From positions 1 through 64,000 of the forward strand of contig NZ_WTVK01000032.1 in NCBI RefSeq assembly GCF_012910805.1: DNA of 64,000 nucleotides, read 5' to 3'. The translations under genes were made by a program, and so were the position numbers. This stretch comes from Aromatoleum evansii. Its GTDB lineage: Bacteria > Pseudomonadota > Gammaproteobacteria > Burkholderiales > Rhodocyclaceae. Below, piece after piece: positions 11,562-35,232 of this stretch; position 1 is the stretch's first letter, and every line of letters starts with the position of its first letter. Below the pieces are notes generated by a model that saw only the letters and a program-made list of their open reading frames with translations, searched no databases and was not told the DNA's origin.

Positions 11562-11575
11562 GGATGCCTTGAGGC

Positions 11576-13288: not shown

Positions 13289-13516
13289 CGTCTCCTCTCC
13301 GGGGTGTGGCGGGACGTGCGGGCGGTCCGTGTGCGGGAGCCAGCGCCGCCGTCCTGTTCTAATGGCGTGCCTGTTGTTGATCCGGTGCGGCGCCTATCGG
13401 TTCCCGTGGCCGCCGGGCGTGCCTGTTTCGGATATCGTAGTCCAGGCGCGCGGCGGACGGGGCGCGAACCCGAGCTGTTGTGCGATGTTTTACGCGTTTT
13501 CCGCTCGCGAGCGCGA

Positions 13517-14395: not shown

Positions 14396-14445
14396 GGGCG
14401 TTTCCCGCTTCGCCTTGTGCGCGCCGAAGGCGGAAGCGGTGGGTG

Positions 14446-15324: not shown

Positions 15325-15373
15325 GGTTGTCCTTCGGGCAAGGGACCCCGCGCGCGGCGGGGTCCCGATGGGG

Positions 15374-18164: not shown

Positions 18165-18252
18165 GAGGGTCTCCTGCCTTCCGATGTCCCCTCGCGGCGG
18201 GTCTTTGCGAGCCCGCGCGAAAGGGTGGGTTCGATAGTTTTAGATTGCCGCG

Positions 18253-19017: not shown

Positions 19018-19043
19018 CATTGTTCCTTGGGGTCGGGGCCGGC

Positions 19044-20045
19044 TCAGCCGAGCCAGTTCTTGATGGTCGAAGCCATCACGTTGGTCGAGATGCCGTAGCG
19101 GTCGTGCAGCGTCGGCAGCGCGCCGGCGTCGAGGAAGGCATCGGGCAGTGCGATCTGGCGGAACGGCGGCGTGACGCCGGCGGTCAGCAAGGCTGTCGCG
19201 ATCGCCTCGCCCAGGCCGCCGATCGTCGTGTGGTTCTCGGCGACGACGACGAGGCGGCCCGAACGGCCCGCTTCGCGCAGGATCGTCGAGGTGTCGAGCG
19301 GCTTGATCGTCGGCACGTGCAGCACGGCCACGTCGACCCGATCCGCTTCCAGCGCCTTGGCCACTTCCAGCGCCCGCATCGTCATGATCCCGGACGAGAT
19401 CACGAGCACATCGCGGCCGTCGCGCACGAGCTTGGCCTTGCCGAGTTCGAACTTGTAGTCGTACTCGTCGAGCACCAGCGGCACCTGGCCGCGCAGGAGG
19501 CGCATGTACACCGGACCCTTGTGTTCGGCCACCGCCGGCACCATCTGCTCGATGTCGAGCGCGTCGCACGGGTCGATGATCGTCATGCCCGGCATCGCGC
19601 GCATCAGCGCGAGGTCCTCGGCCGCCTGGTGGCTAGGGCCGTAGCCGGTCGTGAGGCCCGGCAGCGCGCAGGCGATCTTCACGTTGAGGTCGTCCTCGGC
19701 GATCGTCTGGTGCATGAAGTCGTAGGCCCGGCGCGTCGCGAACACCGCGTAGGTGGTCACGAAGGGCATCGCACCTTCATGCGCGAAGCCGGCCGCGGCG
19801 CCCATCAGCAACTGCTCGGCCATGCCCATCTGGTAGAAACGCTCGGGGTAGGCCTGCGCGAAGATGTGCAGGTCGGTGTATTTCGCCAGGTCGGCCGTCA
19901 TGCCGACCACTTCGGGACGCTCGGCGGCGAGCTTCACGAGCGCGTGGCCGAAGGGCGCGGCGACGGTGCGCTGGCCTTCGCCGGCGATCGACGCGATCAT
20001 CGCCGAGGTCTTGAGTTTGGGTTTTGCTGCGGTTGCAGTGCTCAT
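19044..20045 (-). CDS. Transketolase, C-terminal subunit
   Basis: A 333-residue protein covering the pyrimidine-binding and C-terminal domains of transketolase. The glutamate in GMAEQLLMGAAAGF activates the thiamine diphosphate. The start at 20045 has GGAGG five to nine bases upstream and overlaps the stop of the N-terminal subunit gene (ATGA). Split transketolases of this kind often serve specialised sugar-degradation pathways rather than the pentose phosphate cycle; that role is inferred from the operon. Confidence 0.92.
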   Translation of the reverse strand: MSTATAAKPKLKTSAMIASIAGEGQRTVAAPFGHALVKLAAERPEVVGMTADLAKYTDLHIFAQAYPERFYQMGMAEQLLMGAAAGFAHEGAMPFVTTYAVFATRRAYDFMHQTIAEDDLNVKIACALPGLTTGYGPSHQAAEDLALMRAMPGMTIIDPCDALDIEQMVPAVAEHKGPVYMRLLRGQVPLVLDEYDYKFELGKAKLVRDGRDVLVISSGIMTMRALEVAKALEADRVDVAVLHVPTIKPLDTSTILREAGRSGRLVVVAENHTTIGGLGEAIATALLTAGVTPPFRQIALPDAFLDAGALPTLHDRYGISTNVMASTIKNWLG

Positions 20046-20890
20046 GCTTGGTTCCTCCCGGCTTCCAGCGCTTCCAGGGCCAGTTGCCATTCGTGCGCAT
20101 CGACGCGGATGAAGTGGTTCTTTTCCCGCGCTTCCAGGAAGGGCACGCCGCAGCCCATCAGGGTGTCGGCGATGATCATGCGCGGCTGGGGCAGGGGGTG
20201 GTTGCGCGCGGCGTCGAAGGCGGCGATCACGGCGTCGAGGTCGTTGCCGTCGATGCGCTGCGTGAACCAGCCGAAGGCCTGCATCTTCTCGGTAAGCGGC
20301 TCGAAGGCCATCACCTGCGACGACGGGCCGTCGGCCTGCTGGTTATTGACGTCGACGATCGCGATCATGTTGTCGAGCTTGTGATGCGCGGCCGACATCA
20401 GGCCTTCCCAGATCGCGCCTTCGTCCAGTTCGCCGTCCGAGAACAGCGTATACACGAAGGCGTCCGAGCCCTTGCGCTTCAGGCCGAGCGCGCGGCCGAC
20501 GGCGATCGTCAGGCCCTGGCCCAGCGATCCGCCCGACATCTCCATGCCCGGCGTGTAGCTCGCCATGCCCGACATCGGCAGGCGGCTGTCGTCGCTGCCG
20601 TAGGTTTCGAGCTCTTCCTGGGGGATGATGCCCGCCTCGATCAGCGCCGCGTACAGCGCGATCGCGTAGTGGCCGTTCGACAGCAGGAAGCGGTCGCGGC
20701 CTTCCCAGTCCGGATCCTCCGGGCGGTAACGCATCGAGTTGAAGTAGGCCACCGCCAGCACGTCGGCGATGTCGAGCGCCTGGGCGATGTAGCCCTGGCC
20801 TTGCACCTCACCCATCCGCAGCGCGTTGCGCCGGATGCAGTAGGCGTGTTCGGCGACTCGGGCGCGATTGGCTGCCACGCTGATATCCAC
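20042..20890 (-). CDS. Transketolase, N-terminal subunit
   Basis: The thiamine-diphosphate-binding half, 282 residues. It starts with GTG at 20890, which has AAAGGAG six bases upstream; earlier in-frame ATG codons have no such site. Motifs include LSNGHYAIALYAAL, GGSLGQGL and the diphosphate/metal motif FSDGELDEG with NNQQ about 30 residues later. The first Gly of the usual GDG is Ser. It is first in the operon and divergent from the LysR gene, so the regulator probably controls this promoter. Confidence 0.92.
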   Translation of the reverse strand: MDISVAANRARVAEHAYCIRRNALRMGEVQGQGYIAQALDIADVLAVAYFNSMRYRPEDPDWEGRDRFLLSNGHYAIALYAALIEAGIIPQEELETYGSDDSRLPMSGMASYTPGMEMSGGSLGQGLTIAVGRALGLKRKGSDAFVYTLFSDGELDEGAIWEGLMSAAHHKLDNMIAIVDVNNQQADGPSSQVMAFEPLTEKMQAFGWFTQRIDGNDLDAVIAAFDAARNHPLPQPRMIIADTLMGCGVPFLEAREKNHFIRVDAHEWQLALEALEAGRNQA

Positions 20891-21050
20891 GCAAATCTCC
20901 TTTGTAGGTCCCGCCGTCCGACGACGTCGGGAGGGGGTTCTTTCTCTGTCGTGAGAGGGGTCTCTCCACCTTCGCTCGGGCCGTCCGCGGTCCGTCCGGC
21001 GAGTGGAGAAATCGTATTCCCTTGCCAAATCGCGCTCAAACGAATAATCA
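20891..21050. promoter_or_regulatory. Divergent control region between tktN and lysR
   Basis: On the plus strand TTGCCA (21022-21027) and TAATCA (21045-21050), 17 bases apart, form a likely promoter for the LysR gene. On the leftward side the transcript leader contains two small palindromes, CCGACG-A-CGTCGG (20918-20930) and GAGAG-4-CTCTC (20953-20966). The LysR protein would be expected to bind here and control both directions. Confidence 0.5.
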
Positions 21051-21087
21051 TGGCTGATAGGTGAACTGGATTCATGTGAGTGGTGCA

Positions 21088-21987
21088 ATGCAAAATCGTG
21101 TCCCCCTCAAGGCCGTGCAAGCCTTCGAAGCCGCTGCGCGGCTGTCTTCTTTTGCGCTTGCAGCAGAAGAACTGTTCGTGACGCCCTCCGCGGTGAGCCA
21201 CCAGATCAAGCTCCTGGAGGAGCAATTCGGGGTCCGTCTCTTCCACCGCGTGCACCGTGCGGTGGTCCTGACGGACGCCGGGCGGCGCTACGCGGAGGAG
21301 GTATCCGCAGCGTTCTCGCGCATCGACCTGGCCACCCGCGAGCTCGGGCGCACCGAAAAGAGCGACATCCTCACCGTGCATTCGACGCCCAGTTTCGCGA
21401 CGCAGTGGCTGATGCCGCGGCTGGCGCGGTTCAGCGCGGCCCATCCCGACATCGACGTGCGCCTGAACTCGTCCTACCCGCCACCGCCGGACCTGCTCAC
21501 GCAGGGCGTCGATATCGACATCCGCTGGGGCATGCGGCGACTGCAGCCGGCCGGCACCATGGTGCTGCTCTTTCCGCCCGAGACCATCGTGCCGCTGTGC
21601 ACGCCCGAACTCGCGAACGGCCCCCACCCGCTGCGCACGCCCGAGGACCTGCAGCACCACACCCTGATCCACAGCGAGGTCTGCCTCGTGAGCTGGCGCG
21701 ACTGGATGCGCCAGCATCGCAAGGTCAAGCTGGACATCTCCCGCGGCCTGCGCTTCGACCGCTCCTTCATGGCGATCAGCGCCGCGGTGGACGGCCTCGG
21801 CGTGTGCCTCGAAAGCCTGCTTCTCGTTCAGCGCGAGCTGGAGACCGGGCGCCTGGTCGCCCCCTTCGGCCTGGAGGGGCCCAAGGTCCAGAGCTACACC
21901 TTCAACCTGCTGAAATCGCGCGCCGAGCTGCCCAAGATCCGCAGCTTCCAGGACTGGATCTTCGGCGAACTGGAGAGGGTGGCGTGA
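21088..21987 (+). CDS. LysR-family regulator, GcvA-like
   Basis: A 299-residue LysR-type regulator. The winged helix-turn-helix near the N-terminus reads AAEELFVTPSAVSHQIKLLE, as in GcvA-type members, followed by an effector-binding domain. The ATG at 21088 puts the HTH at the usual distance; a GTG at 21061 would add nine residues. It is divergent from the split transketolase/SDR/TRAP operon and probably activates it in response to the pathway substrate. Confidence 0.9.
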   Translation: MQNRVPLKAVQAFEAAARLSSFALAAEELFVTPSAVSHQIKLLEEQFGVRLFHRVHRAVVLTDAGRRYAEEVSAAFSRIDLATRELGRTEKSDILTVHSTPSFATQWLMPRLARFSAAHPDIDVRLNSSYPPPPDLLTQGVDIDIRWGMRRLQPAGTMVLLFPPETIVPLCTPELANGPHPLRTPEDLQHHTLIHSEVCLVSWRDWMRQHRKVKLDISRGLRFDRSFMAISAAVDGLGVCLESLLLVQRELETGRLVAPFGLEGPKVQSYTFNLLKSRAELPKIRSFQDWIFGELERVA

Positions 21988-22043
21988 AGTTGGGAGTCCC
22001 CGCTGGTAACCGCCTGCAAGCTGTCCTATTAATGAAGCTCGGA

Positions 22044-22114
22044 CCGCCCGTATACGGGCGGAAGGTGCCCGCAGCCGGGGCACGGCAGCATTCACGGACG
22101 CGACGGCCGTGAAT
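22044..22114. promoter_or_regulatory. Two palindromes between lysR and the cupin gene
   Basis: CCGCCCGTATACGGGCGG (22044-22061) is a perfect 18-bp palindrome. ATTCACGG (22090-22097) pairs with CCGTGAAT (22107-22114) across nine bases. Neither has a T run. They could end the lysR transcript or act as operators for the cupin gene, which starts at 22134. Confidence 0.4.
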
Positions 22115-22133
22115 CGGTGCAGGAGCAGCGACC

Positions 22134-22685
22134 ATGTTCGACAAGGAACGGTTCATCCACGACTGCACGCACGCTGTGGCGGAAGGCCCGGCGGCGGTGC
22201 GCGAGATCGTCGCGGAGGCCGTCTCGGACGGCCCCTCGATCATCGCCGCGCTCGGCGCGCCCGCACATGCCGGCATCAACGCGTTGCTCCGCTCGCCCGA
22301 ACTCACGATCATCAATTTCGTGTGGGCCCCCTGCATGAGCCTGATGCCGCACAACCACTGGATGTTCTCGGTGGTCGGAATCTACGCGGGGCGCGAGGAC
22401 AACGTGTTCTGGCGCCGGTCCCCGCAGGGCATCGAGGCGTTCGGCGCGACTTCGCTGGGGGAAGGGGATGTCACCGCGCTCGAGCGTGACGCGATCCATT
22501 CGGTGCTCAACCCGATCGGCAAGATGAGCTGCGCAATCCACGTATATGGCGGCGATTTCTTCGCCCCGCCGCAGCAGCGCAGCATGTGGGATCACGAAAC
22601 GCTCGTCGAGGAGCCCTGGGAAGTGGAGAAGGTGAAAGCGCTGTTCGACCAGGCGGAATCCCGCTTCAACGCCTGGCACGCGTGA
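22134..22685 (+). CDS. Cupin-superfamily protein (cysteine-dioxygenase-like fold)
   Basis: A 183-residue double-stranded beta-helix protein. MPHNHWMFSVVGIYAG carries two metal-ligand histidines in an HxH pattern and AIHVYGGDFF about 70 residues later supplies a third, matching the family of predicted metal-dependent enzymes related to cysteine and thiol dioxygenases. GGAG upstream supports the start. It has no operon partner; its substrate is unknown. Confidence 0.8.
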   Translation: MFDKERFIHDCTHAVAEGPAAVREIVAEAVSDGPSIIAALGAPAHAGINALLRSPELTIINFVWAPCMSLMPHNHWMFSVVGIYAGREDNVFWRRSPQGIEAFGATSLGEGDVTALERDAIHSVLNPIGKMSCAIHVYGGDFFAPPQQRSMWDHETLVEEPWEVEKVKALFDQAESRFNAWHA

Positions 22686-22752
22686 CGCGAAGGCGGTCAC
22701 GTGCAGCTCCGGGCGTGCGAGAATCGCGCCCCCGTCTGCACGAGATGCCGCA

Positions 22753-23763
22753 ATGAGCCAGGTCCAGCACACCGTCACCCACCTCGTCGTCCACAAACTT
22801 CACCGCGCCGGCGAGAGCCCGGCGAGCGCCGAGCTGCGCGAGGGCGCGTGCCGTGTGGACGATGCCGCATTGCGCCTGGTCGAGCGCCTGTGCGGCCACT
22901 ACGCGGACCGCAGCAGCAGGGGCTACGGGCGCTTCGCGGAGGAGGCGGAGTCGGACACGCCCCTGCCGCGTCTCGTGCGCGAGCACGTCGTGGACAAGAG
23001 CCTCGACTTCGCCGCGCTGTCGCATCGCATGATGGACGCGCTGCGCCTGTGCGCGGACGAGGAAGGCGCGGAGGTCACGGGCTACGTCGTGATCGCGCGC
23101 ATCCTCGAAGGCTCGACCGACTGCCTGTGGATCGCCGTGGTCGGCGAGGCCGTCGGCAGCGCCGTCACCGGCGCGCTCGACATCGTCGACTGCCTGCATC
23201 TCGACTTCACGGCGCTGCCCGCAGTGGGGCGCATCGACCTCACCGGCTGGCAACGCGGCGACGAGCGCTACATCAGCTTCCTCAAGGGGCGCGGCGATGT
23301 CGCGCCCTGGTTCAAGCGCTTCCTCGGCTGTGGCGACGTCGTGATCGCGCTGAAGGAAACCAAGAAGCTCGTGCAGCGTCTCTCCGACTTCGCCGACACG
23401 CAGCGCCTCGAGGCGCCCGCGCGCGACGCGATGCTGGAACGCGCGCACGGCTACCTCGACGAGCTGGGCGAGGCCGGCTCGCCGCTCGCGCTCGATGAGA
23501 TCGCGCGCAAGGTGTGGCCCGAGCAGCCGGAGCGCCTTGACGCGGCCCTCTCGTCCGGCGAGGCGCCGCTCGCCAGCGGCTTCGTCCCCGACCGCCGCGC
23601 AATCCGCCCGCTGGTGCGTTTCCGTGCCGCCGGAGAGCAGTGGAAGCTGGAATTCGACCGCGCGAGCCTGCATTCGGGCGCCGTGCACTACGACCGCGCG
23701 AGCGACACGCTGGTGCTGTCGGGCCTGCCCGAGTACCTCAAGAAGATGCTGCAGGAGGAATGA
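22753..23763 (+). CDS. Nucleoid-associated protein, NdpA/YejK family
   Basis: A 336-residue protein resembling the 37-kDa nucleoid-associated family, with the motif FLKGRGDVAPWFKRFLGC and the usual C-terminal SGLPEYLKKML. Members associate with the nucleoid in enterobacteria, and some oppose or modulate phage and plasmid functions. It stands alone, converging on a methyltransferase gene with a 21-base gap. Confidence 0.85.
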   Translation: MSQVQHTVTHLVVHKLHRAGESPASAELREGACRVDDAALRLVERLCGHYADRSSRGYGRFAEEAESDTPLPRLVREHVVDKSLDFAALSHRMMDALRLCADEEGAEVTGYVVIARILEGSTDCLWIAVVGEAVGSAVTGALDIVDCLHLDFTALPAVGRIDLTGWQRGDERYISFLKGRGDVAPWFKRFLGCGDVVIALKETKKLVQRLSDFADTQRLEAPARDAMLERAHGYLDELGEAGSPLALDEIARKVWPEQPERLDAALSSGEAPLASGFVPDRRAIRPLVRFRAAGEQWKLEFDRASLHSGAVHYDRASDTLVLSGLPEYLKKMLQEE

Positions 23764-23784
23764 GGCGACAGCGCTCGCGCCGGC

Positions 23785-24936
23785 TCAGCGCGCGGCGAGG
23801 CGCCACAGCGACGTGACTTCCGCGGCGCGTGCCGCGTGCAGCGCATCGTCGGCGTCGCTCGCCTTGCCATGCCGGGGACGGGCGTCGAGCCTTCCCAGCA
23901 CCTGCAGGCCGCCCGCGTCGATCGCCGCGAGCAGCTCCTCGCGCGAGCGCAGGCCCAGATGCTCTGCGAGATCCGACAGGATCAGCCAGCCTTCCCCGCC
24001 GGGCGCGAGATGCGCCGCGAGGCCGGCGAGAAAGGCGCGCAGCATGCGGCTGTCGGGGTCGTACACGGCGTATTCGACGGGCGAGCTCGGGCGCGCCGGC
24101 ACCCACGGCGGGTTGCATACGACCAGCGCCGCGCGCCCCTCGGGGAACATGTCGGCCTGCACGACTTCGATCTGTCCCGCATAGCCGAGGCGCGCTATGT
24201 TCTCGCCCGCGCAGGCCAGCGCGCGCGGATCCTGGTCGGTCGCGACGATGTGTGCCACGCCACGGCGCGCGAGCACGGCGGCGATCACGCCGGTGCCGGT
24301 TCCCACGTCGAAGGCTGTCGCGTCACCCGTGAGGGCCGCGGGCAGGGGCGCCTGCGCGACGAGATCGACGTATTCGCCGCGCACCGGCGAGAACACGCCG
24401 TAATGCGGATGGATCGCCGCGCCAAGCGCCGGGATCGGCACGCCCTTCTTGCGCCACTCGTGCGCGCCGATCAGGCCCAGCAGTTCGCGCAGCGACGCGA
24501 CATAGGGTTCGTCGGCGGCGCCATAGGCTTCCGTGCAGGCCTGCCGCACGTCCGGCGCGCGGCGCAGCGGCAGGTCGTGGCCGGCCTCGAAGGGCAGCAG
24601 GAGCATGCCTAGCACCCGCGCGCGCTGCGCCTGCGCCTGGCGATGCAGGTGGAAGCTCTCGGTCGTGCTCTTCGCCGCGGCGGGCTTGCCGGGGCGGCGC
24701 GGCTTGCGCTCGATGCGCCGCGCCATCGCCTGCAGCAGCTGCTTCGCATTGTGGAAGTCGCCGCGGTACAGCAGCGCCGTGCCCTCGCACGCGAGCCGGT
24801 AGGCCTGGTCCGCGGGCGTCTGGTCGTCGACGAGCACGACCCGCCGCGGCGGCGGGCTGCCGCTTTCCGAGCGCCAGCGGGCCGAATGTGTCGCGCCGGT
24901 CTCATCCTGCCAGACGATTTGCGGGTGATCCTGCAT
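23785..24936 (-). CDS. Class I SAM-dependent methyltransferase (N5-glutamine/RNA type)
   Basis: A 383-residue protein with a C-terminal methyltransferase domain: FDVGTGTGVIAAVLARRG binds SAM and VCNPPWVP is the NPPW catalytic motif of enzymes that methylate planar nitrogens (PrmC, RsmC and relatives). About 200 residues precede the domain and contain no recognised motif beyond a basic KPRRPGKPAAAK stretch. The substrate, rRNA, protein or DNA, cannot be decided from sequence. Confidence 0.82.
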   Translation of the reverse strand: MQDHPQIVWQDETGATHSARWRSESGSPPPRRVVLVDDQTPADQAYRLACEGTALLYRGDFHNAKQLLQAMARRIERKPRRPGKPAAAKSTTESFHLHRQAQAQRARVLGMLLLPFEAGHDLPLRRAPDVRQACTEAYGAADEPYVASLRELLGLIGAHEWRKKGVPIPALGAAIHPHYGVFSPVRGEYVDLVAQAPLPAALTGDATAFDVGTGTGVIAAVLARRGVAHIVATDQDPRALACAGENIARLGYAGQIEVVQADMFPEGRAALVVCNPPWVPARPSSPVEYAVYDPDSRMLRAFLAGLAAHLAPGGEGWLILSDLAEHLGLRSREELLAAIDAGGLQVLGRLDARPRHGKASDADDALHAARAAEVTSLWRLAAR

Positions 24937-24982
24937 CGGTTTTCCTTGATAAGTGCGCCACCCGCGGGGCGCAGGGGCGGGG

Positions 24983-25474
24983 TCAGGCCTTGTCGGCCGA
25001 CCCGTGGGTCTCGGCGAAGCGCTTCTCGAGCTCCAGCCGCAGCGCCTTGCGCGCCTCCGCCGCCTCGAAACGCCGCTTCTCCTTCGGGCTGAACGGGCGC
25101 AGCGCCGGCACCGGCACCGGCTTGCCGTCGTCGTCGACGGCCACCATGGTGAAGAAGCAACTATTGGCGTGGCGCACTTCCTGGGTGCGGATGTTCTCCG
25201 CGACGACCTTGATGCCCACCTCCATCGACGACTTGCCGGTGTAGTTCACGCTCGCGAGGAAGGTCACGAGCTCACCCACCATGATGGGCTGGCGGAACAT
25301 CACCTGATCCACCGACAGCGTGACGACGTAGCGTGCGGCGTAGCGGCTCGCGCAGGCGTAGGCAACCTGGTCGAGCAGCTTGAGCACGGCGCCGCCGTGC
25401 ACCTTGCCGGAGAAGTTCGCCATGTCCGGTGTCATCAGCACCGTCATCGTGAGTTGGTGTGCAGGAAGATCCAT
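24983..25474 (-). CDS. Acyl-CoA thioesterase, hotdog fold (YciA type)
   Basis: A 163-residue hotdog-fold thioesterase that hydrolyses acyl-CoA to free acid and CoA. VHGGAVLKLLDQVAYACASR contains the catalytic region and VDQVMFRQPI the second strand motif of the YciA/BACH group. The ATG at 25474 begins the recognisable domain; the longer open frame upstream adds only arginine- and proline-rich codons. It is a single-gene unit. Confidence 0.9.
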   Translation of the reverse strand: MDLPAHQLTMTVLMTPDMANFSGKVHGGAVLKLLDQVAYACASRYAARYVVTLSVDQVMFRQPIMVGELVTFLASVNYTGKSSMEVGIKVVAENIRTQEVRHANSCFFTMVAVDDDGKPVPVPALRPFSPKEKRRFEAAEARKALRLELEKRFAETHGSADKA

Positions 25475-25609
25475 CTCTGTTCTCGTCGGGGTTCGGGGGC
25501 GCGCCCTGTGCTCAGGGTCTGTCGGCGCATTGGCGCCAGCGGCGATTCTGAGCGCTCGCGCCGGGCGACGCAAACCCGCATGCGTCCCCGACGCGCTGCG
25601 TTGCGAGGA

Positions 25610-26095
25610 TTACCAGAACTTCCACCACCACTTCTTTTTCTGCATCGTCGTCTTCACCTCTTCGGACCACTCCGAATAGCCCTTCAGGTCGGTGTTGCGG
25701 ACGAAGTGGTTGCCGAAGCGCTTGTCGCTCTCGTTGATGTGTTTCGTCAGCCACACCTGCAGGAAGTGCAGCAGTTCGAAACTGATCGAGGCCTGGCCGC
25801 TGTCGAGCTTGTCCTGCAGCGACTTGACCTGGGCGATGAGGTCTTCGTGCTGCTGCTTGTGCAGTTCGAGACCGGGATAATGCGACACTCGCATCAGGCT
25901 CTCTTCCAGCAGGAAGTGGGTGCGCGTGTATTCCGCCAGCTGGTCGAGGATCGCGCGACAGGCCTGGCTGCCCTTGTGGTCGCGGATCGCGGCGTGCAGC
26001 TGGTTGAGCAGATCGACCAGCGTGCGATGCTGTTCGTCGATCTCCTGGATGCCGACGTTGAAGCTGTCGGACCACTCGAACAGGACTTGACTCAT
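25610..26095 (-). CDS. Bacteriohemerythrin
   Basis: A 161-residue hemerythrin-like oxygen-binding protein. All seven di-iron ligands are in place: His23, His60, Glu64, His79, His83, His119 and Asp124. The C-terminal tail [11 protein letters not shown] is strikingly basic and tryptophan-rich. The family binds or senses O2 in the cytoplasm and is common in microaerobic and denitrifying bacteria. The ATG at 26095 begins [10 protein letters not shown], the standard N-terminus. Confidence 0.94.
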
Positions 26096-26330
26096 TAGTG
26101 CTCTCCGTACGACGTTGGAATTGTTGTGCGGGTCCGGCGGAGACGGGGCGGCGCCGCTACCGGATCGGCATCGCCCGATTATGCTCCGGGGGAAGGTGAC
26201 TGTCATGCCGCGAGGCGCGATCCGAATGGCGCCGCAATGCTGGCGTGGTGCGGAGAAGTCCGCGACAATCGCCGCTCCGCGGGGCGTTCGCCCCTTGTCG
26301 CTTTTCCTGCCGTTTGCCGAGGACACCGCG

Positions 26331-27110
26331 ATGCCCAGGTTTGCCGCCAACCTGACGATGATGTTCAACGAGCAGCCGTTTCCGCAGCGTTTCGCCGCCG
26401 CCGCGCGTGCCGGTTTCGCGGCCGTCGAGTTCCTCTTCCCCTACGAACACGCGCCGGCCGAGGTCGCAGCGTGGCTGCAAGACAACAGACTCGCCAACGT
26501 ACTCTTCAACATGCCGCCGGGCGACTGGGCCGCGGGCGAGCGCGGCCTCGCGTCGCTGCCGGGGCGCGAGGCGGAATTCCGCGCGGGTGTCGCGCGCGGG
26601 CTCGAATACGCGCAGGCGCTCGGGACGCCTTGCCTGCACGTGATGGCAGGCCTGGCCGTGCCCGGCGTTGCGCCCGGCGTGCAGCGCGCCCTGTACGTCG
26701 ACAACCTGCGCCATGCGGCGCGGGCTGCTGCGCAGCACGGCGTCAAGGTGCTGATCGAGCCGATCAACACGCGCGACATGCCGGGCTATTTCCTGAGCAC
26801 CCAGGCCGAGGCGCATGCGATCCGCGAGGAAGTCGGCGAGCCCAACCTGATGGTGCAGATGGACCTCTACCACGCCCAGATCATGGAAGGCGACATCGCC
26901 ACCAAGCTGCGCCGCTACCTGCCTCACATCGGCCACATACAGATCGCGGGCGTGCCGGCGCGCAATGAGCCGGACGACGGCGAACTCGACTACCGCTACC
27001 TCTTCCGCCTGCTCGACGAACTCGGCTACGCCGGCTGGGTCGGCTGCGAGTACCGGCCGCGCGGAAGGACCGAGGACGGACTGGGGTGGATGAGGGCGAA
27101 CGTGGACTGA
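26331..27110 (+). CDS. Hydroxypyruvate isomerase-family protein (Hyi/OtnI)
   Basis: A 259-residue xylose-isomerase-like TIM barrel. [12 protein letters not shown] is the usual N-terminus of this group; the conserved metal-site glutamate in [13 protein letters not shown] and [13 protein letters not shown] follow. Members interconvert hydroxypyruvate and tartronate semialdehyde or isomerise 2-oxo-tetronates. Neither glyoxylate carboligase nor tetronate kinase genes are beside it, so the exact substrate remains open. It is monocistronic. Confidence 0.88.
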
Positions 27111-27272
27111 CGGGCGGGGGGCGTTCTGGTGGAATTGACCCATGCCGGTGGGGCGAATCGCGCAGCGGGGCGGCCACAGGCTCGCGGCTGCCTGCGGAGT
27201 CATGTCGCCGGATGTTGGCAAAAATCAATTAAAACAGTGGATTGAAGAAAATCTCTCCTCGCGGGGACGGGC

Positions 27273-27288
27273 TGGCACGCGCAGTGCA
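27273..27288 (+). promoter_or_regulatory. Sigma-54 (RpoN) type promoter
   Basis: TGGCACG (27273-27279), four spacer bases and GTGCA (27284-27288) match the -24/-12 consensus TGGCACG-N4-TTGCW with one mismatch; the five preceding bases CGGGC also fit the extended consensus. Transcription would start near 27299, leaving a leader of about 74 bases. The upstream stretch 27218-27251 is unusually A/T-rich and could bind IHF. Confidence 0.65.
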
Positions 27289-27372
27289 TAAGAGAAGTGT
27301 CGGGCAGCGCTCGACGACTCAGATCGTAATGGGCGTTCCGGCCCGTGCCCCAACCTCGACAGGAGAGACAAA

Positions 27373-27774
27373 ATGAAAACCTTTCCGCGCAAGCTTGCCG
27401 CAGCCATCATCGTCCTCGGATTCGCGACCACCGCGAGCTACGCAGCCACCGTGTCCGCCACCGCTCCAGCGCAAGGCAGCCAGGCAAGCGCGCCTGCCGC
27501 CCCGGTAACGATGCTGGCCAGGAAAGGGGCGGACGATGGCGCTCCCAAGCCCCGCCCCGATGACACCGGCTGCGACGATAACGGCACCGACATCTGCAAC
27601 GCGATCGTCGCGAAGAAGGGTGCGGACGATGGCGGAGGTCGCAAGCCGCGGCCCGACGATACCGGCTGCGATGATAACGGTACCGACATCTGCCATGCGG
27701 TCGTCGCCAAGAAGGGAGCCGACGACACCCATCCGGAGGATGAGTCGGAGTTCGAGACCGAGACAGTCGGCTGA
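27373..27774 (+). CDS. Small secreted cysteine-repeat protein, unknown function
   Basis: A 133-residue exported protein not recognised as any known family. Residues 1-24 form a signal peptide (cleavage near SYA-A). After an Ala/Pro/Ser linker there are two near-identical repeats, residues 51-81 and 82-113, each with KGADD, KPRPDDTG and CDDNGTDIC, and a third KGADD start at 114 that runs into an acidic tail. Cysteines 67, 75, 99 and 107 are two per repeat and would be able to form disulfides in the periplasm; the Asp-rich CDDNGTDIC could bind a metal. AGGAG lies seven bases upstream of the ATG. A sigma-54-type promoter precedes the gene. Confidence 0.8.
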   Translation: MKTFPRKLAAAIIVLGFATTASYAATVSATAPAQGSQASAPAAPVTMLARKGADDGAPKPRPDDTGCDDNGTDICNAIVAKKGADDGGGRKPRPDDTGCDDNGTDICHAVVAKKGADDTHPEDESEFETETVG

Positions 27775-27993
27775 GACCAAGTCGGCAGCGAGCTTCGCCG
27801 CATGACGGCGAGGCTCACCGGAAGTTTCCCCCCCCTTGCCGGAAGTGTCTCGCGCCAGCGCGGGCGCGTCCGGTGAGGGGGCAATGGTCTTCGAACGGCA
27901 AGGCGCATCGGGCGAACGCGACGGCACCCCCTTTCTCCGGCTATGCTTCGGTTTGAACATTCAACCGCATGGCCCGTCCGTCCCGTTCCCCGA

Positions 27994-29022
27994 ATGAGCT
28001 TCCGCATCGCAATCAACGGCTACGGCCGTATCGGCCGCTGCTTCCTGCGCGCCCTCCACGAATCGCCGCTGCGCCAGTCGCTATCCGTCGTCGCCATAAA
28101 CGAGCCGGCAGACATCGAGAGCATGGCCTATCTGACGCGCTTCGACTCGACCCACGGCTGTTTCCCCGGTACCGTCGGCATCCGTGACGGCTGCCTGCAC
28201 ATCGACGACCAGGACATCACCGTGACCCACGCGACGACGCCCGATGGCGTCGACTGGCGGGCCTTCGATGCCGACCTCCTCGTCGAGGCTTCCGGGCGCT
28301 ACCGCTACCGGCACGAACTCGAAGCCTTCCTCGGCGCCGGCTGTCCGCGCCTGCTGCTCTCGCACCCAGGTCACAGCGCCGCCGATGTCGATCGCACCGT
28401 CGTGTTCGGCATGAACCACGAGTCGCTCGAAGGCAACGAGCGCATCGTCTCCGCCGCCTCCTGCACCACCAATGCCGTCGTGCCCATCCTCGCGATCCTC
28501 GAGCAGGCATTCGGCATCGAGCACGCGCTGACCACGACGCTGCATTCGGTGATGAACGACCAGCCCGTGATCGACGGCTACCACGCCACCGACCTGCGCA
28601 TGACGCGCTCGGCGATGCAGTCGATGATCCCGGTCCAGACCGGCCTCGCGAAAGGCATCTCCCGCCTGCTGCCGGCGCTGGAAGGGCGCGTCGTCGCCAA
28701 GGCCATCCGCGTTCCCGTGCCGAACGTGTCGGCCATCGACCTGACGGTGACGCTCCGGCGCAACGCCACGGTCGAGACGATCAACCGCCTGATGCGCCGC
28801 GTAGCCGAGGAGGACCGCCACGGCGTGCTCGCGTACTCCGACGGCCCGCACGCGTCGGTGGACTTCAATCACAACGGCTTCTCCGCCATCGTCGACGGCA
28901 GCCAGACCCATGCGAGCGGGGAGCGGCTCGTGAACCTGATGCTGTGGTTCGACAACGAATGGGCCTTCTCGCGCCGCATGCTGGACGTCGCGGCATTCTG
29001 GGCGAAGCGGCTGGGGCGCTGA
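27994..29022 (+). CDS. epd: D-erythrose-4-phosphate dehydrogenase (Epd)
   Basis: A 342-residue member of the GAPDH superfamily, NAD motif INGYGRIGR at the N-terminus and catalytic Cys in ASCTTN. The stretches LLSHPG, HSVMNDQPVIDGYH, VDFNHNGFSAIVDG and WFDNEWAFSRRMLD follow E. coli Epd rather than glycolytic GAPDH. Epd oxidises erythrose 4-phosphate to 4-phosphoerythronate, the first step toward pyridoxal phosphate. Glycolytic pgk and fba are not adjacent. Start at 27994 is chosen because the domain begins there. Confidence 0.88.
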   Translation: MSFRIAINGYGRIGRCFLRALHESPLRQSLSVVAINEPADIESMAYLTRFDSTHGCFPGTVGIRDGCLHIDDQDITVTHATTPDGVDWRAFDADLLVEASGRYRYRHELEAFLGAGCPRLLLSHPGHSAADVDRTVVFGMNHESLEGNERIVSAASCTTNAVVPILAILEQAFGIEHALTTTLHSVMNDQPVIDGYHATDLRMTRSAMQSMIPVQTGLAKGISRLLPALEGRVVAKAIRVPVPNVSAIDLTVTLRRNATVETINRLMRRVAEEDRHGVLAYSDGPHASVDFNHNGFSAIVDGSQTHASGERLVNLMLWFDNEWAFSRRMLDVAAFWAKRLGR

Positions 29023-29124
29023 GCGTCGCGCCGCCGTCTGCACGGCGCGGCGAATGTGCAGTGCATCGACTATTCTGGATGGGCACGCCGCATTCTGCGG
29101 CCGCAACCATTCACGGAGTGTCGT

Positions 29125-29388
29125 GTGGCAAGCAAATACTTTTGCCTGGTGCTGACGCCGGACGGGCTTTCCGAACTGGCGCCGGTCCTGAAGGACTATC
29201 TGCACGAAGGCCCCATCGGCACCTACCTGTACTGCCGGGAGGCCGACCCGGGGCGCAACTACTTCCATGTGGTCGCGGAATGCGTCAAGGACAACCGCCC
29301 GACGATCGAATCCGAGGCTTTCATCCCGCACCGTTTCGTCAAGGTCGTCATCTCCAGTCCGGACCGCAAGCACATCGGCTTCCTCTGA
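29125..29388 (+). CDS. Small conserved-looking hypothetical protein
   Basis: An 87-residue protein starting at GTG 29125 with GGAG six bases upstream (an ATG at 29056 is possible but less convincing). No signal peptide, membrane segment or known motif is visible. It has several aromatic and charged residues, with CREADPGRNYFHVVAE in the middle, and looks like a compact soluble alpha/beta protein. It ends six bases before ridA on the same strand and is probably cotranscribed with it. Confidence 0.65.
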   Translation: MASKYFCLVLTPDGLSELAPVLKDYLHEGPIGTYLYCREADPGRNYFHVVAECVKDNRPTIESEAFIPHRFVKVVISSPDRKHIGFL

Positions 29389-29394
29389 CTGCGC

Positions 29395-29793
29395 ATGACC
29401 AAGCGGATCGTCCTCATCAAGGACGCCCCCACTCCTGTCGGCCCGTATTCGCAGGGCGTAATCATGGATGGGTGGGTCTGGACCTCCGGGCAAGTCGGCT
29501 TGAATCCGGCCACGGGGGAACTGGTTGGCCCTGACGTGGCGACGCAAGCCAATCAGGCGCTGCACAACATCGAGGCGATCCTGCGCGCGGCTGGATCCAG
29601 CCTGAACCAGGTTGTCCGCGTGACCGTCTTCCTGACGAACATGGACGACTTTTCCGCCGTGAATGCCGTGTATGCCAACTACTTTGCGACGGATTTCCCG
29701 GCGCGCTCGTGCGTGGAAGTCTCGCGCCTGCCGCTCGGTGCCCTGGTCGAGATCGATGCGATGGCCAGGGTGAATCGCCTTGCGTCTCGATAG
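29395..29793 (+). CDS. ridA: RidA-family enamine/imine deaminase
   Basis: A 132-residue RidA (YjgF/UK114) protein. PTPVGPYSQGV near residue 15, TSGQVGLNP and the C-terminal PARSCVEVSRLPLGALVEIDAMA are family signatures; the arginine in PARSCVEV is the key catalytic residue. RidA hydrolyses reactive 2-aminoacrylate and related enamines to protect PLP enzymes. A strong terminator follows. Confidence 0.95.
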   Translation: MTKRIVLIKDAPTPVGPYSQGVIMDGWVWTSGQVGLNPATGELVGPDVATQANQALHNIEAILRAAGSSLNQVVRVTVFLTNMDDFSAVNAVYANYFATDFPARSCVEVSRLPLGALVEIDAMARVNRLASR

Positions 29794-29861
29794 CGCGTAT
29801 TCGCTCCATGCAACCCACTTGCCCGCACACAGGATCCGGGCGAAAGCGGGCAGGAAAGCAA

Positions 29862-29889
29862 AAAGCCCAGCCGGTGAGGGCTGGGCTTT
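29862..29889. terminator. Rho-independent terminator between ridA and tRNA-Met
   Basis: AAAGCCCAGC (29862-29871) pairs perfectly with GCTGGGCTTT (29880-29889) over an eight-base loop. A run of A residues precedes and T residues end the stem, so it can stop ridA transcription rightward and the tRNA transcript leftward. Confidence 0.85.
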
Positions 29890-29902
29890 CGCTTGGAAAT
29901 CG

Positions 29903-29979
29903 TGGTGGTGATGGGCAGAATCGAACTGCCGACCTATGGGTTATGAATCCATCGCTCTAACCGTCTGAGCTACATCACC
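29903..29979 (-). tRNA. tRNA-Met (CAT), elongator type
   Basis: On the minus strand a 77-base tRNA begins GGTGATGTAGCTCAG and ends CCCATCACCACCA with the CCA encoded. The acceptor stem GGTGATG/CATCACC is perfect, the anticodon loop is TTCATAA with CAT, and the T arm contains GTTCGATTC. The G1-C72 acceptor pair marks the elongator rather than the initiator. Confidence 0.96.
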
Positions 29980-29992
29980 GCTCGAGCCTGCT

Positions 29993-30022
29993 AATATAGC
30001 GGTTTGGGAATCTGCGCGTCAA
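29993..30022 (-). promoter_or_regulatory. Promoter of tRNA-Met
   Basis: Read leftward, TTGACG (30022-30017) and TATATT (29998-29993) are 18 bases apart and end 13 bases before the mature tRNA. On the opposite strand TAATAT at 29992-29997 could be the -10 box for miaB, so the two promoters overlap. Confidence 0.6.
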
Positions 30023-30031
30023 CACGCTTCA

Positions 30032-31369
30032 ATGAAGAAACTGTATATCCGCACTTTCGGCTGCCAGATGAACGAGTACGACTCGGACAAGATGGCGGAC
30101 GTGCTCGGGGCGACCGAGGAACTGGTGAAGACCGACAACCCCGAAGAGGCGGACGTGATCCTCTTCAACACCTGTTCGGTGCGCGAGAAGGCGCAGGAGA
30201 GGGTGTTCCACGACCTCGGGCGGGTGAAGCACCTGAAGCAGGCGAATCCGAACCTCATCATCGGCGTCGGCGGTTGCGTCGCGAGCCAGGAGGGCGAGGC
30301 GATCGTCGCGCGTGCGCCCTACGTCGACGTCGTGTTCGGACCGCAGACCCTGCACCGCCTGCCGCAACTGATCGCCGAGCGGCGCTACAGCGGCCGCTCG
30401 CAGGTCGACATCTCCTTCCCCGAGATCGAAAAGTTCGACAACCTGCCGCCCGCGCGCGTCGAGGGGGCGAGTGCCTTCATGTCGATCATGGAAGGCTGCT
30501 CCAAGTACTGCACCTTCTGCGTCGTGCCCTACACGCGGGGCGAGGAGGTGTCGCGGCCGCTTGACGACATCCTCACCGAGGTCGCCGGCCTCGCCGGCCA
30601 GGGTGTCAAGGAAGTGACCCTGCTGGGCCAGAACGTCAATGCGTGGCGCGGGCCGATCACGAAGCAGGGCGGCGAGACGGGCGACTTCGCCTTCCTGCTC
30701 GAATGCGTCGCGGAGATCCCCGGTATCGAGCGCCTGCGCTACACGACCTCGCATCCGCGCGAGATGACGCAGCGCGTGTTCGATGCGTACGCGAACATCC
30801 CCAAGCTCGTGAGCCACCTGCACCTGCCGGTGCAGTCGGGTTCCGACCGCATCCTCGCGGCGATGAAGCGCGGCTACTCGGTGCTGGAGTTCAAGTCGGT
30901 GGTGCGCAAGCTGCGCGCGGCCCGTCCCGATCTTTCGCTGTCGTCGGACTTCATCGTCGGTTTTCCCGGCGAGACCGAGGAGGACTTCGAGAAGACGATG
31001 AAGCTGATCGACGAGGTCGGGTTCGATGCGTCCTTCAGTTTCGTGTATAGCCCGCGTCCCGGCACGCCTGCCGCGGATCTGGAAGACCCGGTGCCGCAGG
31101 AGACCAAGCTGCGCTGGCTCGCACGCCTGCAGAAGCGCATCGACGAGCAGGCCCAGGCGATCAGCCAGGCGATGGTGGGGCGAGTCGAACGCGTGCTGGT
31201 CGAGGGGCATGCGCGCAAGGACGAGACCGAGCTCGCCGGGCGCACCGCCAACAACCGCGTCGTGAACTTTCCCGGCAATGCGCGCCTGATCGGGCAGTTC
31301 GTCGACGTGACGATCACCGCCGCCCTGCCGCACAGCCTGCGCGGCGAAATCGTGACGAGAGAAATCTGA
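30032..31369 (+). CDS. miaB: tRNA-2-methylthio-N6-dimethylallyladenosine synthase MiaB
   Basis: Radical SAM methylthiotransferase (445 residues) that adds a methylthio group to i6A37 of tRNAs reading UNN codons. Order: N-terminal UPF0004 domain with three cluster cysteines (TFGCQMN, NTCSVRE, GGCVAS), radical SAM core with CSKYCTFC, and a C-terminal TRAM domain. It is first in a run of housekeeping genes and directly abuts phoH. Confidence 0.97.
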
Positions 31370-32350
31370 ATGGGCCGACCCACCGAAGTGGTGCTGGAGC
31401 CGCTGGACAACCAGCGGCTCGCGAACCTGTGCGGCGCGCTGGACGAAAACCTGCGCCAGATCGAGACCGCGTACGACGTGACCATTGCGCGCCGCGGCGA
31501 GCGCTTCACGCTGCAGGGCGGGGCCGCGCAGGCGGCGTTGGCGGCGAAGGCGCTGCGCGAATTCTACGAGCAGGCTGGCGAGCATCTCAGCGTCGATGAC
31601 ATCCAGCTCGGCCTGATCGAGATCGCCAATCGCCGCAAGTCGGATCAGGCCGCGCCGGCGCTGCTGACGCGCAAGACCGAGCTGCACGGCCGCACGCCGC
31701 GCCAGGTCGAGTACCTGCGCAACATCCAGGCGCACGACATCACCTTCGGCATCGGTCCCGCGGGTACCGGCAAGACCTATCTTGCGGTCGCGAGCGCGGT
31801 GGATGCCTTCGAACGCCAGCTCGTCGAGCGCATCATCCTGACGCGTCCGGCGGTCGAGGCGGGCGAACGCCTCGGGTTCCTGCCCGGCGACCTCGCGCAG
31901 AAGGTCGACCCCTACCTGCGCCCGCTCTACGACGCGCTCTACGACCTGATGGGCTTCGATCGCGTTGCCAAGCTGTTCGAGCGCGGCAGCATCGAGATCG
32001 CGCCGCTCGCCTTCATGCGCGGGCGCACGCTCAACCACGCCTTCATCATCCTCGACGAGGCGCAGAACACGACGCCCGAGCAGATGAAGATGTTCCTCAC
32101 CCGCATCGGCATCGGCGCGAAGGCCGTCGTCACCGGCGACCTCACGCAGATCGACCTGCCTCGCGGCCATCGCAGCGGCCTACTGGAGGCGCGCGAGGTG
32201 CTCGCCGCCGTGCGCGGCATCGCCTTCACCGAGTTCCAGAAGGAAGACGTCGTGCGCCACCCGCTGGTCGCGCGCATCGTCGAGGCCTACGACAACCAGG
32301 CGACGCGCGCCGCGATGCAGGCTGCGCTCGCCAAGAAGGAGCAGGCCTGA
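31370..32350 (+). CDS. phoH: PhoH-like ATPase
   Basis: A 326-residue cytoplasmic P-loop ATPase. Walker A is GPAGTGKT, Walker B is [12 protein letters not shown], and the N-terminal part is a small KH-like region typical of the PhoH/YbeZ group. In many bacteria YbeZ works with the RNase YbeY, encoded next; the genes overlap by one base (TGATG). Confidence 0.95.
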
Positions 32351-32844
32351 TGATCGATTCCCCGCCGCATCTGGCGCTGACGATCCAGAAGGCCATCGGC
32401 AAGGCCAATCGCGACAACGCCCCGTCTTCCACCGACATGCGCCGCTGGGCGCAGGCCGCGCTGCAGGGCGTCGATGCCGAAGTCACGGTGCGTCTCGTTG
32501 GCGCGACCGAGGGGCGCGAGCTCAACCGCGATTTTCGCGGCAAGGACTACGCCACCAACGTGCTGACCTTCGTCTATGGTGAAGGCGAGGGCATGCCGGA
32601 CCAGGATGACGATGCGCCGCTCGCCGGCGATCTCGTGCTGTGCGTGCCCGTCGTCGTGCGCGAGGCCGCCGAGCAGGGCAAGCCGCTGGCCGCGCATTAC
32701 GCCCATCTGATCGTGCATGGCATGCTGCATCTGCAGGGCTACGACCACGAGGACAGCGACGAGGCCGAGGAGATGGAGGCGCTCGAAACACGGATTCTCG
32801 CCGAACTGGGCTATCCTGATCCCTACGCCGAACGCTCCGCCTGA
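32350..32844 (+). CDS. ybeY: Endoribonuclease YbeY
   Basis: A 164-residue zinc-dependent RNase involved in 16S rRNA 3'-end maturation and ribosome quality control. [11 protein letters not shown] near residue 122 is the invariant zinc site (H3XH5XH pattern), and NVLTF precedes it. It is coupled to phoH by a TGATG overlap. Confidence 0.96.
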
Positions 32845-32869
32845 CCCGCCCGACCGATTCTTCCGACAT

Positions 32870-33703
32870 ATGGACCCCGCATCACCCCGACCTAGTCTGC
32901 TCGAACGCCTCTCCGCGCTGCTGTCGCGCGAGCCCGAGGATCGCGAGGAACTTCTGGCCCTGCTGCACGCGGCCTTCGAACGCAACCTGCTCGACGCCGA
33001 TGCGCTTGCGATCATCGAAGGCGCGCTGCAGATGTCCGAGCTGCAGGTCGGCGACGTGATGATCCCGCGCGCGCAGATGGACATCATCCGCCTCGACGAG
33101 CCGGTGGACCGCATCGCCGCGCACGTCGTCGATACCGGCCACTCGCGCTTCCCGGTCGGTGACAGCAAGGACGACATCGTCGGCATCTTCCTCGCCAAGG
33201 ATCTGCTGCGCTACTACGCCGGTCGCGACTTCGACATGCACACCTTGCTGCGTCCGGCCGTGTTCGTGCCCGAGTCGAAGCGACTGAACGTGCTGCTGCG
33301 CGAATTCCGCGTCAGCCGCAACCACATGGCCATCGTCGTCGACGAATACGGCAGCGTCGCGGGCCTGGTAACGATCGAGGACGTGCTCGAGCAGATCGTC
33401 GGCGACATCGAGGACGAATTCGACCGGCTCGAGCCCAGCGACAACATCCAGCTCGATGCGGATGGCCGCTACCGTGTCCGCGCCACCACCGAGATCGGCG
33501 AATTCAATGCCGCCTTCGGCTCCGACTTCAGCGACGCCGAGGTCGACACCGTCGGCGGCCTGCTAATCTGCCAGCTCGGCCGCCTGCCGCGCCGCGGCGA
33601 GGTGGTGATGCTCGGAAACCTGCGCGTCACCGCGCTACGTGTGGATGGCCGGCGTGTGCATACCCTGCTCGTGCAGCCCCTCGCCGGAACGGCCGAAGCG
33701 TGA
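32870..33703 (+). CDS. corC: CorC/TlyC-family CBS-domain protein
   Basis: A 277-residue soluble protein with two CBS domains (about 65-190) and a C-terminal CorC/HlyC domain, ending TLLVQPLAGTAEA. E. coli YbeX/CorC has been linked to magnesium and cobalt efflux and to ribosome metabolism. The ATG at 32870 begins the alignable sequence. The stop codon overlaps the GTG start of lnt. Confidence 0.93.
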   Translation: MDPASPRPSLLERLSALLSREPEDREELLALLHAAFERNLLDADALAIIEGALQMSELQVGDVMIPRAQMDIIRLDEPVDRIAAHVVDTGHSRFPVGDSKDDIVGIFLAKDLLRYYAGRDFDMHTLLRPAVFVPESKRLNVLLREFRVSRNHMAIVVDEYGSVAGLVTIEDVLEQIVGDIEDEFDRLEPSDNIQLDADGRYRVRATTEIGEFNAAFGSDFSDAEVDTVGGLLICQLGRLPRRGEVVMLGNLRVTALRVDGRRVHTLLVQPLAGTAEA

Positions 33704-35232
33704 CCCATCCGGTGCAGGACTCGGGCGCCGCACCGGCGGGCGGGCGGGTGCGCGGCCTGCTGGCGGCGCTGCTCGCGGGCGGCACGTCGGTCCTTGCCTT
33801 TGCGCCCTTCGGAATCTTTCCGCTGGCGGTGCTGAGCCTCGCCGTGCTGGCGGGCCTGGCCGCGCGGCAAACGCGTGCGCGTGCAGGTTTTGCGCTCGGC
33901 TTCGCGTGGGGGTTGGGCGCCTTCCTGGCCGGGGTGTCCTGGCTTTATGTCGCGCTCAATCGCTACGGCGGCATGCCGATGCCGCTCGCTGCGCTGGCGA
34001 TCCTGCTGTTCTGTGCCTATCTCGCCCTCTTCCCGGCTGCGGTCGGGGCGCTGTTCGTGCGCTTCGGGCGGGGTGGGGCGTGGCGGCGCGCGCTGCTCTT
34101 CGCCGGCCTGTGGATGGGCTCCGAGCTCTTGCGCGGCTGGTTGTTCACGGGTTTCCCGTGGCTCGCGGCCGGCTATTCGCAGACCCCGCCGAGCCCGCTC
34201 GCAGGATTCTTCCCCGTGCTGGGCGTGTATGGCGTGGGCGGCCTTGTCGCCTTCCTTGCGGCGTTGGTCGCCCTCACTCGCTGGCGTAGCGCGCGTCCCG
34301 CCGCGGAGGCCCTCGCCGCGATCCTCGTCCTGAGCGGGGCAGGCTTCGGCCTGGGGCGTATCGCCTGGACCTCCCCTGTCGGCGAGCCGCTCGAAGTCGC
34401 GCTGATCCAGACCAACATCGAGCAGAGCCTGAAGTGGCGCCCCGAATTGCTGTCCGACTGGCTGGAGAGCAACGCGCGCCTCGTGCGCGAAAACCCCGCG
34501 GACCTCGTCGTGCTGCCCGAGACGACGCTGCCGCTGCTGGCAGACCGCCTGCCCGACGGCTACCTCGAAGAGCTTGCCGCCCCGGTCGCAGCGCGCGGTG
34601 GCGACGTGGTGTTCGGCGTGTTCCTGCGCGACGCGCGCGGCGCCATCTACAACGCCGCGCTGAGTCTCGGCGCTTCGCCTTCGCAGAGCTACGCGAAGCA
34701 GCACCTCGTGCCCTTCGGCGAATACTCCCCGCCGCTCTTCGGCTGGTTCTACGAGATGGTCGATATTCCCATGTCCGACCAGACGCGTGGCGCCCCCGAC
34801 CAGCCGCCGCTGCGCCTCGGCACGCAGCGCGTAGCGATCAACATCTGCTACGAAGACCTCTTCGGTCGCGAGCTGATCCGCAGCCTGCCCGAGGCGACGC
34901 TGATGCTGAACCTGTCGAACCTCGCCTGGTACGGCGACTCCCTCGCCCAGCCCCAGCACCTGCAGATCGCCCGCGTGCGCGCGATGGAAACAGGGCGGCC
35001 GATGCTGCGCTCGACCAACACCGGCATGACTGCGCTGGTGCAGCCCGACGGCCGTGTCGCCGAGGTCCTGCCGGCCTTCATGCAGGGGGGGCTGAGCGTG
35101 TCGGTGCAGGGCTACGAAGGGCTCACCCCTTATGCGCGCTGGGGCGATTTTGCCGCGCTGCTGCTGGGCGTGCTGGCGCTTGCCGTCGCGGGCCGCCTGC
35201 GGCGTGATGGGCACGCCCGGCGCGGGATCTGA
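33700..35232 (+). CDS. lnt: Apolipoprotein N-acyltransferase
   Basis: Inner-membrane enzyme that N-acylates the lipid-modified cysteine of lipoproteins, the last step before Lol sorting. The 510-residue protein has an N-terminal block of about six membrane segments, a periplasmic nitrilase domain with the Glu-Lys-Cys triad in VLPETTLPL, AKQHLVPFGEYSP and NICYEDLFG, and a C-terminal membrane anchor. It starts with GTG overlapping the corC stop codon. Confidence 0.95.
   Translation: MTHPVQDSGAAPAGGRVRGLLAALLAGGTSVLAFAPFGIFPLAVLSLAVLAGLAARQTRARAGFALGFAWGLGAFLAGVSWLYVALNRYGGMPMPLAALAILLFCAYLALFPAAVGALFVRFGRGGAWRRALLFAGLWMGSELLRGWLFTGFPWLAAGYSQTPPSPLAGFFPVLGVYGVGGLVAFLAALVALTRWRSARPAAEALAAILVLSGAGFGLGRIAWTSPVGEPLEVALIQTNIEQSLKWRPELLSDWLESNARLVRENPADLVVLPETTLPLLADRLPDGYLEELAAPVAARGGDVVFGVFLRDARGAIYNAALSLGASPSQSYAKQHLVPFGEYSPPLFGWFYEMVDIPMSDQTRGAPDQPPLRLGTQRVAINICYEDLFGRELIRSLPEATLMLNLSNLAWYGDSLAQPQHLQIARVRAMETGRPMLRSTNTGMTALVQPDGRVAEVLPAFMQGGLSVSVQGYEGLTPYARWGDFAALLLGVLALAVAGRLRRDGHARRGI

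Follow-up and report, generated by a model that had tools for sequence, protein, structure and literature searches.

Aromatoleum evansii encodes, downstream of what we read as a sigma-54 promoter, a small and presumably exported protein built from cysteine-containing repeats, which constitutes a genuine, if modest, new gene family whose function is unproven. The gene was found in a stretch of 64,000 nucleotides, termed here the window, which is part of a 5.94-Mb draft genome in 330 contigs. The finding adds a genus-restricted family of putative exported proteins that is absent from the libraries searched, together with a conserved and testable promoter of the sigma-54/IHF type, and it provides a small example of a dispensable gene that is seemingly still retained under conditional control.

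Our proposal for this locus is a genus-restricted exported protein that is produced conditionally via sigma-54 and IHF, is closed into disulfide loops, and serves a cation-related or surface role; we place the probability of this proposal as a whole at roughly 50 percent. According to it, sigma-54 RNA polymerase would switch on the gene under particular conditions, with an enhancer-binding protein presumably bound to conserved DNA some 150 bp 5' of the start, and with IHF perhaps bending the DNA between this activator site and the -24/-12 promoter, as conservation of the intervening site suggests. The product would then be exported by the Sec pathway, as its signal peptide predicts. In the oxidising periplasm or at the cell exterior, the two Cys of each unit (C-x7-C) would be expected to pair, closing nine-residue, Asp/Asn-rich loops on an otherwise flexible acidic chain. 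The most likely job of such a chain would be that of a low-affinity cation-binding protein or of a surface or matrix component required only under certain conditions, which we offer as a guess that is more likely wrong than right. No fold backs a binding site, since the mean pLDDT of the AlphaFold models for three sequences is 43.6, a value that neither supports nor excludes a fold.

The repeat protein and its occurrence in Aromatoleum

The repeat-protein gene was taken from the open reading frame list of the window (Table 1). From the look of their sequences, we take the upstream neighbour, which ends at 27110, to be hydroxypyruvate-isomerase-like and the downstream neighbour, which ends at 29022, to be glyceraldehyde-3-phosphate-dehydrogenase-like. 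No Rfam model matched positions 26900-28100.

Table 1. Predicted features of the repeat-protein locus, numbered from the first nucleotide of the window
Feature	Position	Strand	Remarks
Candidate upstream activator block CCCATGCCGGTGGGGCGAAT	27139..27158	+	Centre ~125 bp 5' of the -24 TGG; tentative
IHF-like site AAACAGTGGATTG	27232..27244	+	7/9 positions of WATCAANNNNTTR
-24/-12 sigma-54 promoter TGGCACGCGCAGTGCA	27273..27288	+	Predicted start ~27299; TGG[CT]AC-N6-TGC kept in 6/6 intact copies
Cysteine-loop repeat protein, 133 aa, predicted to be exported	27373..27774	+	dN/dS, alignment
Signal peptide, residues 1-24, predicted cleavage SYA/AT	27373..27444	+	Read from sequence
Repeat unit 1, 31 residues, CDDNGTDIC	27520..27612	+	Protein units; TRF
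Repeat unit 2, 32 residues, CDDNGTDIC	27613..27708	+	Protein units; TRF
Truncated unit 3, stop at the place of the first Cys	27709..27774	+	DNA alignment with three relatives

When read by eye, the N-terminus of the product exhibits a positive start, a hydrophobic core and an A-x-A-like end (SYA/AT), and much of this signal peptide is conserved in an alignment of the six intact copies of the protein that we found. The mature protein of 109 residues is computed to contain 17 Asp and 4 Cys, with a charge of -11 and a pI of 4.3. At the DNA level, TRF reports a tandem array at 27524-27725 (period 96, 2.1 copies, 83% matches). The third unit comprises 21 residues and has no cysteine loop; it can be called truncated because, in a DNA alignment with three relatives, a stop codon replaces the first Cys codon of a repeat that is complete in those species, and the DNA 3' of this stop has diverged from theirs. 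Among the six intact copies, every complete unit carries two Cys, GAD and GCDD-x-GT-x2-C of the first unit are kept throughout, and the number of complete Cys units is two in A. evansii and in the genomes designated G003, G001 and G014, and three in G005 and G012. It is evident that the gene evolves as coding sequence, since dN/dS falls between 0.13 and 0.39 in all ten pairs of a five-copy set (A. evansii, G005, G003, G001 and G012, with G014 outside the set).

No family in Pfam matches the repeat protein at E up to 10, nor does any PDB chain at E up to 1, while its two NCBIfam hits and its PHROGs hits (0.12 or worse) are all sub-threshold. None of the titles and abstract openings examined pointed to it, and passages from a paper on Azoarcus BH72 (PMC3262810) were of no help. 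A likeness can be drawn to Asp-rich calcium repeats such as those of thrombospondin type 3. There, as here, Asp/Asn-rich turns adjoin cysteines, and the acidic residues are spaced differently from those of the repeat protein; unlike thrombospondin type 3 repeats, the protein is hit by no Pfam model, that for those repeats included, at E up to 10.

The features that the original prediction observed are confirmed. It had described a 133-residue protein with two CDDNGTDIC repeats and a truncated third, upon which the open reading frame, the comparison of units and the TRF array agree; it had also called a signal peptide, recognised no family, and suggested that repeat number may vary, as it does between species. 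Our analysis adds to these features an IHF-like site and a candidate activator block, and shows that unit 3 is cut short by a stop within a repeat that relatives carry in full.

When examining the distribution of the gene with a six-row profile, we obtained matches in 7 of 17 Aromatoleum genomes, consisting of six intact copies, that of A. evansii included, and one remnant in G009; in the other ten, the profile search did not find it. Since it is not found in 10/17 genomes of the genus and has decayed in one, the gene is dispensable. The neighbouring dehydrogenase, by comparison, is matched in 17/17, and by this protein nine of the genomes form a close group (93-100 percent identity), in which five have an intact repeat-protein gene, one has the remnant and three have none. 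Two genomes without the gene, G002 (L129) and G016 (L130), exhibit a short junction that joins the two neighbour genes when read by eye, while G015, also without it, appears by eye to be missing the isomerase motif upstream as well. The remnant (G009:C1:3425587; L025, L134) is decayed and has no -24/-12 site upstream, and the sixth intact copy, in G014, lies about 1.4 Mb away from the matching dehydrogenase gene. For this gene, a contig scan that detects close relatives only gave Aromatoleum toluclasticum and A. toluolicum as the closest named species.

Beyond the genus, 38 of 378 genomes of the family gave weak matches at E up to 0.1, and none of the 23 loci read, from 23 of these 38 genomes, looked related, although the scan scored only 10 candidates per genome and may therefore have passed over a weak relative. 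Among 399 genomes of the order, the sole match besides the genome of A. evansii itself (G542) was in an unrelated frame, and scans of plasmids, of phages and of one set of viral contigs yielded no relative. Within what was searched so far, the repeat protein is restricted to Aromatoleum, a genus of pollutant-degrading bacteria.

The promoter and its upstream region

The -24/-12 element, which the original prediction had placed at its present position with one mismatch to the consensus, does differ from TGGCACGNNNNTTGCW at a single position. By itself, this match is not above chance: one site at up to one mismatch is observed in the window, where 0.77 would be expected, and at least one appears in 53 of 100 shuffles. 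The sigma-54 promoter becomes convincing because it is conserved in both position and sequence in 6/6 copies, and not by the number of matches. In every intact copy, TGG[CT]AC-N6-TGC is located 100-107 nt 5' of the ATG, with ten bases separating GG at -24 from GC at -12, whereas the base preceding TGC is G in four copies and A in two and never the consensus T (0/6). Four of the six promoters come from close relatives that share long stretches of upstream DNA and are therefore not independent; G012 and G014 are otherwise diverged. The gene for the sigma factor, rpoN, is over its cut-off in 17/17 genomes of the genus, A. evansii included. As a separate observation, two RpoN matches are over the cut-off in 8/17 genomes (G004, G006, G007, G008, G010, G011, G013 and G014) and one in the other nine, which form the group of A. 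evansii.

Upstream of the promoter, an ACA-N5-TTG element is separated from the TGG by exactly 28 bp (TTG-N28-TGG) in 6/6 intact copies, even in G012 and G014. This site lies at offset -41 from the TGG and agrees with WATCAANNNNTTR, which we take to be the IHF consensus, at 7 or 8 of 9 positions, with no exact match. The offset is the top or joint-top IHF match in all six promoters, with ties elsewhere in A. evansii, G005 and G003; the site of A. evansii itself has two equal matches within the same promoter. As an offset common to all six, -41 scores 43/54 versus 28 for the next, although the shuffles used in this test were of single bases and on related sequences, so its p near 0 overstates the case. 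A dyad, YCAAW-N11-WTTGR, had also been considered and was dropped after the offset test favoured the IHF-like site. The IHF consensus, 28 bp and the -24/-12 element, searched as one pattern at up to 2 mismatches, occur together once in the window and in 0/100 shuffles, a pattern that was designed after the promoter had been seen and is therefore not an independent test.

Farther upstream, the candidate activator block is identical at 15/20 columns in four sequences (A. evansii, G005, G003 and G001), compared with 3-8/20 in six windows starting at 27159-27208, and by eye G012 and G014 have a similar G-rich block about equally far upstream. The block is tentative, since the leader and the end of the neighbouring gene are conserved to the same degree, and it may belong to that gene end. 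Nor is conservation confined to the control sites, as in the four close sequences the IHF block is moderately conserved at best (11-12/20 columns), whereas the leader following the promoter reaches 12-19/20 and equals the control sites.

Activators of sigma-54 promoters are described in part of a review (PMC7057263) as binding about 100-150 bp upstream, often with IHF aiding the looping, and the portion of PMC6296734 consulted here documents one case of IHF acting between CbrB sites and a promoter. The layout at the repeat-protein gene resembles that of such NifA-, XylR- and CbrB-type promoters, as far as those parts of the two sources describe them, in its -24/-12 element, in an IHF-like site that lies between this element and a candidate upstream block, and in the distance of that block (100-150 bp); unlike theirs, its IHF-like site is a near rather than an exact match. 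We read the region as a real sigma-54 promoter that may be assisted by IHF. The original prediction had proposed sigma-54 control and had named a lack of -24/-12 conservation among relatives as evidence that would speak against it; the element is conserved in 6/6. Considering that interpretation as a whole, it is supported in part: its promoter, secretion signal, lack of a family in the libraries searched and variation in units are upheld, and the activator, the inducing condition, the start site, secretion itself and metal binding stay predictions.

Other readings of the promoter and the product

It is conceivable that the -24/-12 match is a product of chance and that transcription of the gene starts elsewhere, as chance alone would place 0.77 one-mismatch sites in the window. 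Against this stand the position and sequence of the element, kept in 6/6 copies with a companion site at a fixed distance, and the lack of any sigma-70-like promoter match between 27080 and 28020, and we regard a chance match as very improbable. Membership in the PrsK/PrsR-controlled PEP-CTERM exopolysaccharide regulon was considered first, since A. evansii encodes one PrsR over the cut-off (740.5 vs 502.6 bits) as well as five PEP-CTERM hits over theirs. As part of Haft et al. describes it (PMC1569441), the genes of that regulon resemble the repeat-protein gene in encoding exported proteins behind sigma-54 promoters, in single-gene units with long upstream regions, and their activator motif ends in TTTACA, 32-92 nt before the sigma-54 motif. 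TTTACA is absent on both strands from the 400 nt before the repeat-protein gene in 6/6 copies, and this regulon was set aside on that account. A PEP-CTERM gene of the same genome (G000:C221:37698; L043), by contrast, exhibits by eye a TGTCGGCACATTTTACA-like TGTC...TTTACA site together with a -24/-12-like site. The product of the repeat-protein gene also differs from the exported proteins described in that part of PMC1569441 in having no PEP-CTERM domain. For this domain at the C-terminus there was no match in Pfam at E up to 10 and none among the two NCBIfam hits. There is as little probability that the gene belongs to this regulon as that its promoter match is fortuitous.

Regarding the product, the repeats could instead represent copies within a peptide precursor, from which proteases cutting at the basic sites that precede each GADD would, after export, free two or three similar disulfide-looped peptides with a signaling or antagonistic function. 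The tandem arrangement of two or three GADD...GCDD[NH]GTDxC cassettes, the loops of which vary less than their linkers, would be consistent with such a precursor, as would the small exported peptides that sit behind a similar promoter layout in relatives. Yet tandem repeats with drifting linkers are commonly seen in structural proteins too, the residues preceding GADD do not always form a basic pair (one unit of G014 has KN there, and G012 has AK, GS and GN), and no maturation, transporter or immunity genes were recognised by eye among the open reading frames of 22000-34000. We therefore judge a multi-copy precursor to be quite unlikely. Its more specific form, in which a Sec-exported, sigma-54-controlled precursor would release from each repeat a disulfide-closed peptide of the CDDNGTDIC type that acts outside the cell as a signal or antagonist specific to the genus, is slightly less probable still. 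The preferred reading of the product remains a conditionally produced, exported protein with disulfide loops.

Promoters of double-glycine peptides in relatives

The arrangement of IHF-like and -24/-12 sites is also encountered elsewhere in the genus. A search of the 17 genomes with ACA-N5-TTG-N28-TGGYAY-N6-TGC at up to one mismatch yielded 32 hits in 15 genomes, versus 7 for a reversed control. These comprise 6 promoters of the repeat-protein family, 9 before double-glycine peptides and 17 others. At zero mismatches, 8/8 hits are promoters of exported small proteins, six for the repeat protein and two for double-glycine peptides with leaders such as LGCEAMSAVRGG; the other seven double-glycine promoters appear at one mismatch. 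Among the 17 other hits, 14 lie inside frames that stay open for 185 codons or more, including the second hit of A. evansii at 42274, although such frames are weak coding evidence in GC-rich DNA. The remainder are L074, G001:C268, and L070, which precedes a presumably PrpB-like gene. The PrpB operon is sigma-54 dependent through a different activator. When motif density was counted on loci that had been picked for the motif, 13 of 14 hits were the promoters examined here, the remaining one lying in a coding frame.

In a collection of 16 peptide promoters, which is a sample of loci and not a census, the top or joint-top IHF match falls 41 or 42 bp 5' of the TGG in 16/16; nine of these promoters were found with a pattern that fixes the offset, and among the seven found by protein search the distance is 41 in one and 42 in six. 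This common layout raises the possibility that one activator serves both the repeat-protein gene and the peptide genes. The shared part is, on the other hand, that of the general sigma-54 and IHF machinery, given the L070 hit before the PrpB-like gene; the upstream blocks of the two sets of promoters look different by eye; and A. evansii, G003, G005 and G012 have the repeat-protein gene without any such peptide at E up to 0.01 with one query. A common activator is accordingly unlikely, if a little less so than the peptide precursor discussed above, and the shared geometry suggests sigma-54 with IHF generally. The peptides themselves resemble the repeat protein in being small, meant for export and preceded by the same promoter geometry, whereas their leader ends in GG and those of G001 and G002 flank an exporter cluster. 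The repeat protein stands alone and has, as read from its sequence, a Sec-type signal peptide and no double-glycine leader.

The promoter geometry nevertheless flags sets of double-glycine exported peptides in Aromatoleum that are worth study. In G001 and G002, the peptides flank a cluster for a C39-peptidase ABC exporter. The G001 cluster, which was tested, contains the C39-peptidase ABC exporter, HlyD, an outer-membrane factor (OEP), a PpiC-type protein and FHA proteins, and that of G002 contains a PP2C phosphatase; HD proteins are also found in the exporter clusters of the two genomes. Groups of such peptides (for example LDREAMSEVRGG) are located at about 7635-23848 of G001:C238 (L120) and about 3035793-3051799 of G002:C1 (L122, L123), and further groups occur at 972590-988325 of G009:C1 and 2462297-2477994 of G014:C1 (L125). 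Right after the predicted start, the leaders of the peptide transcripts (L071, L073, L076, L078, L079, L088, L092, L094 and others) exhibit by eye a conserved inverted repeat like CGAGCGCGCGAAAGTGCTCG.
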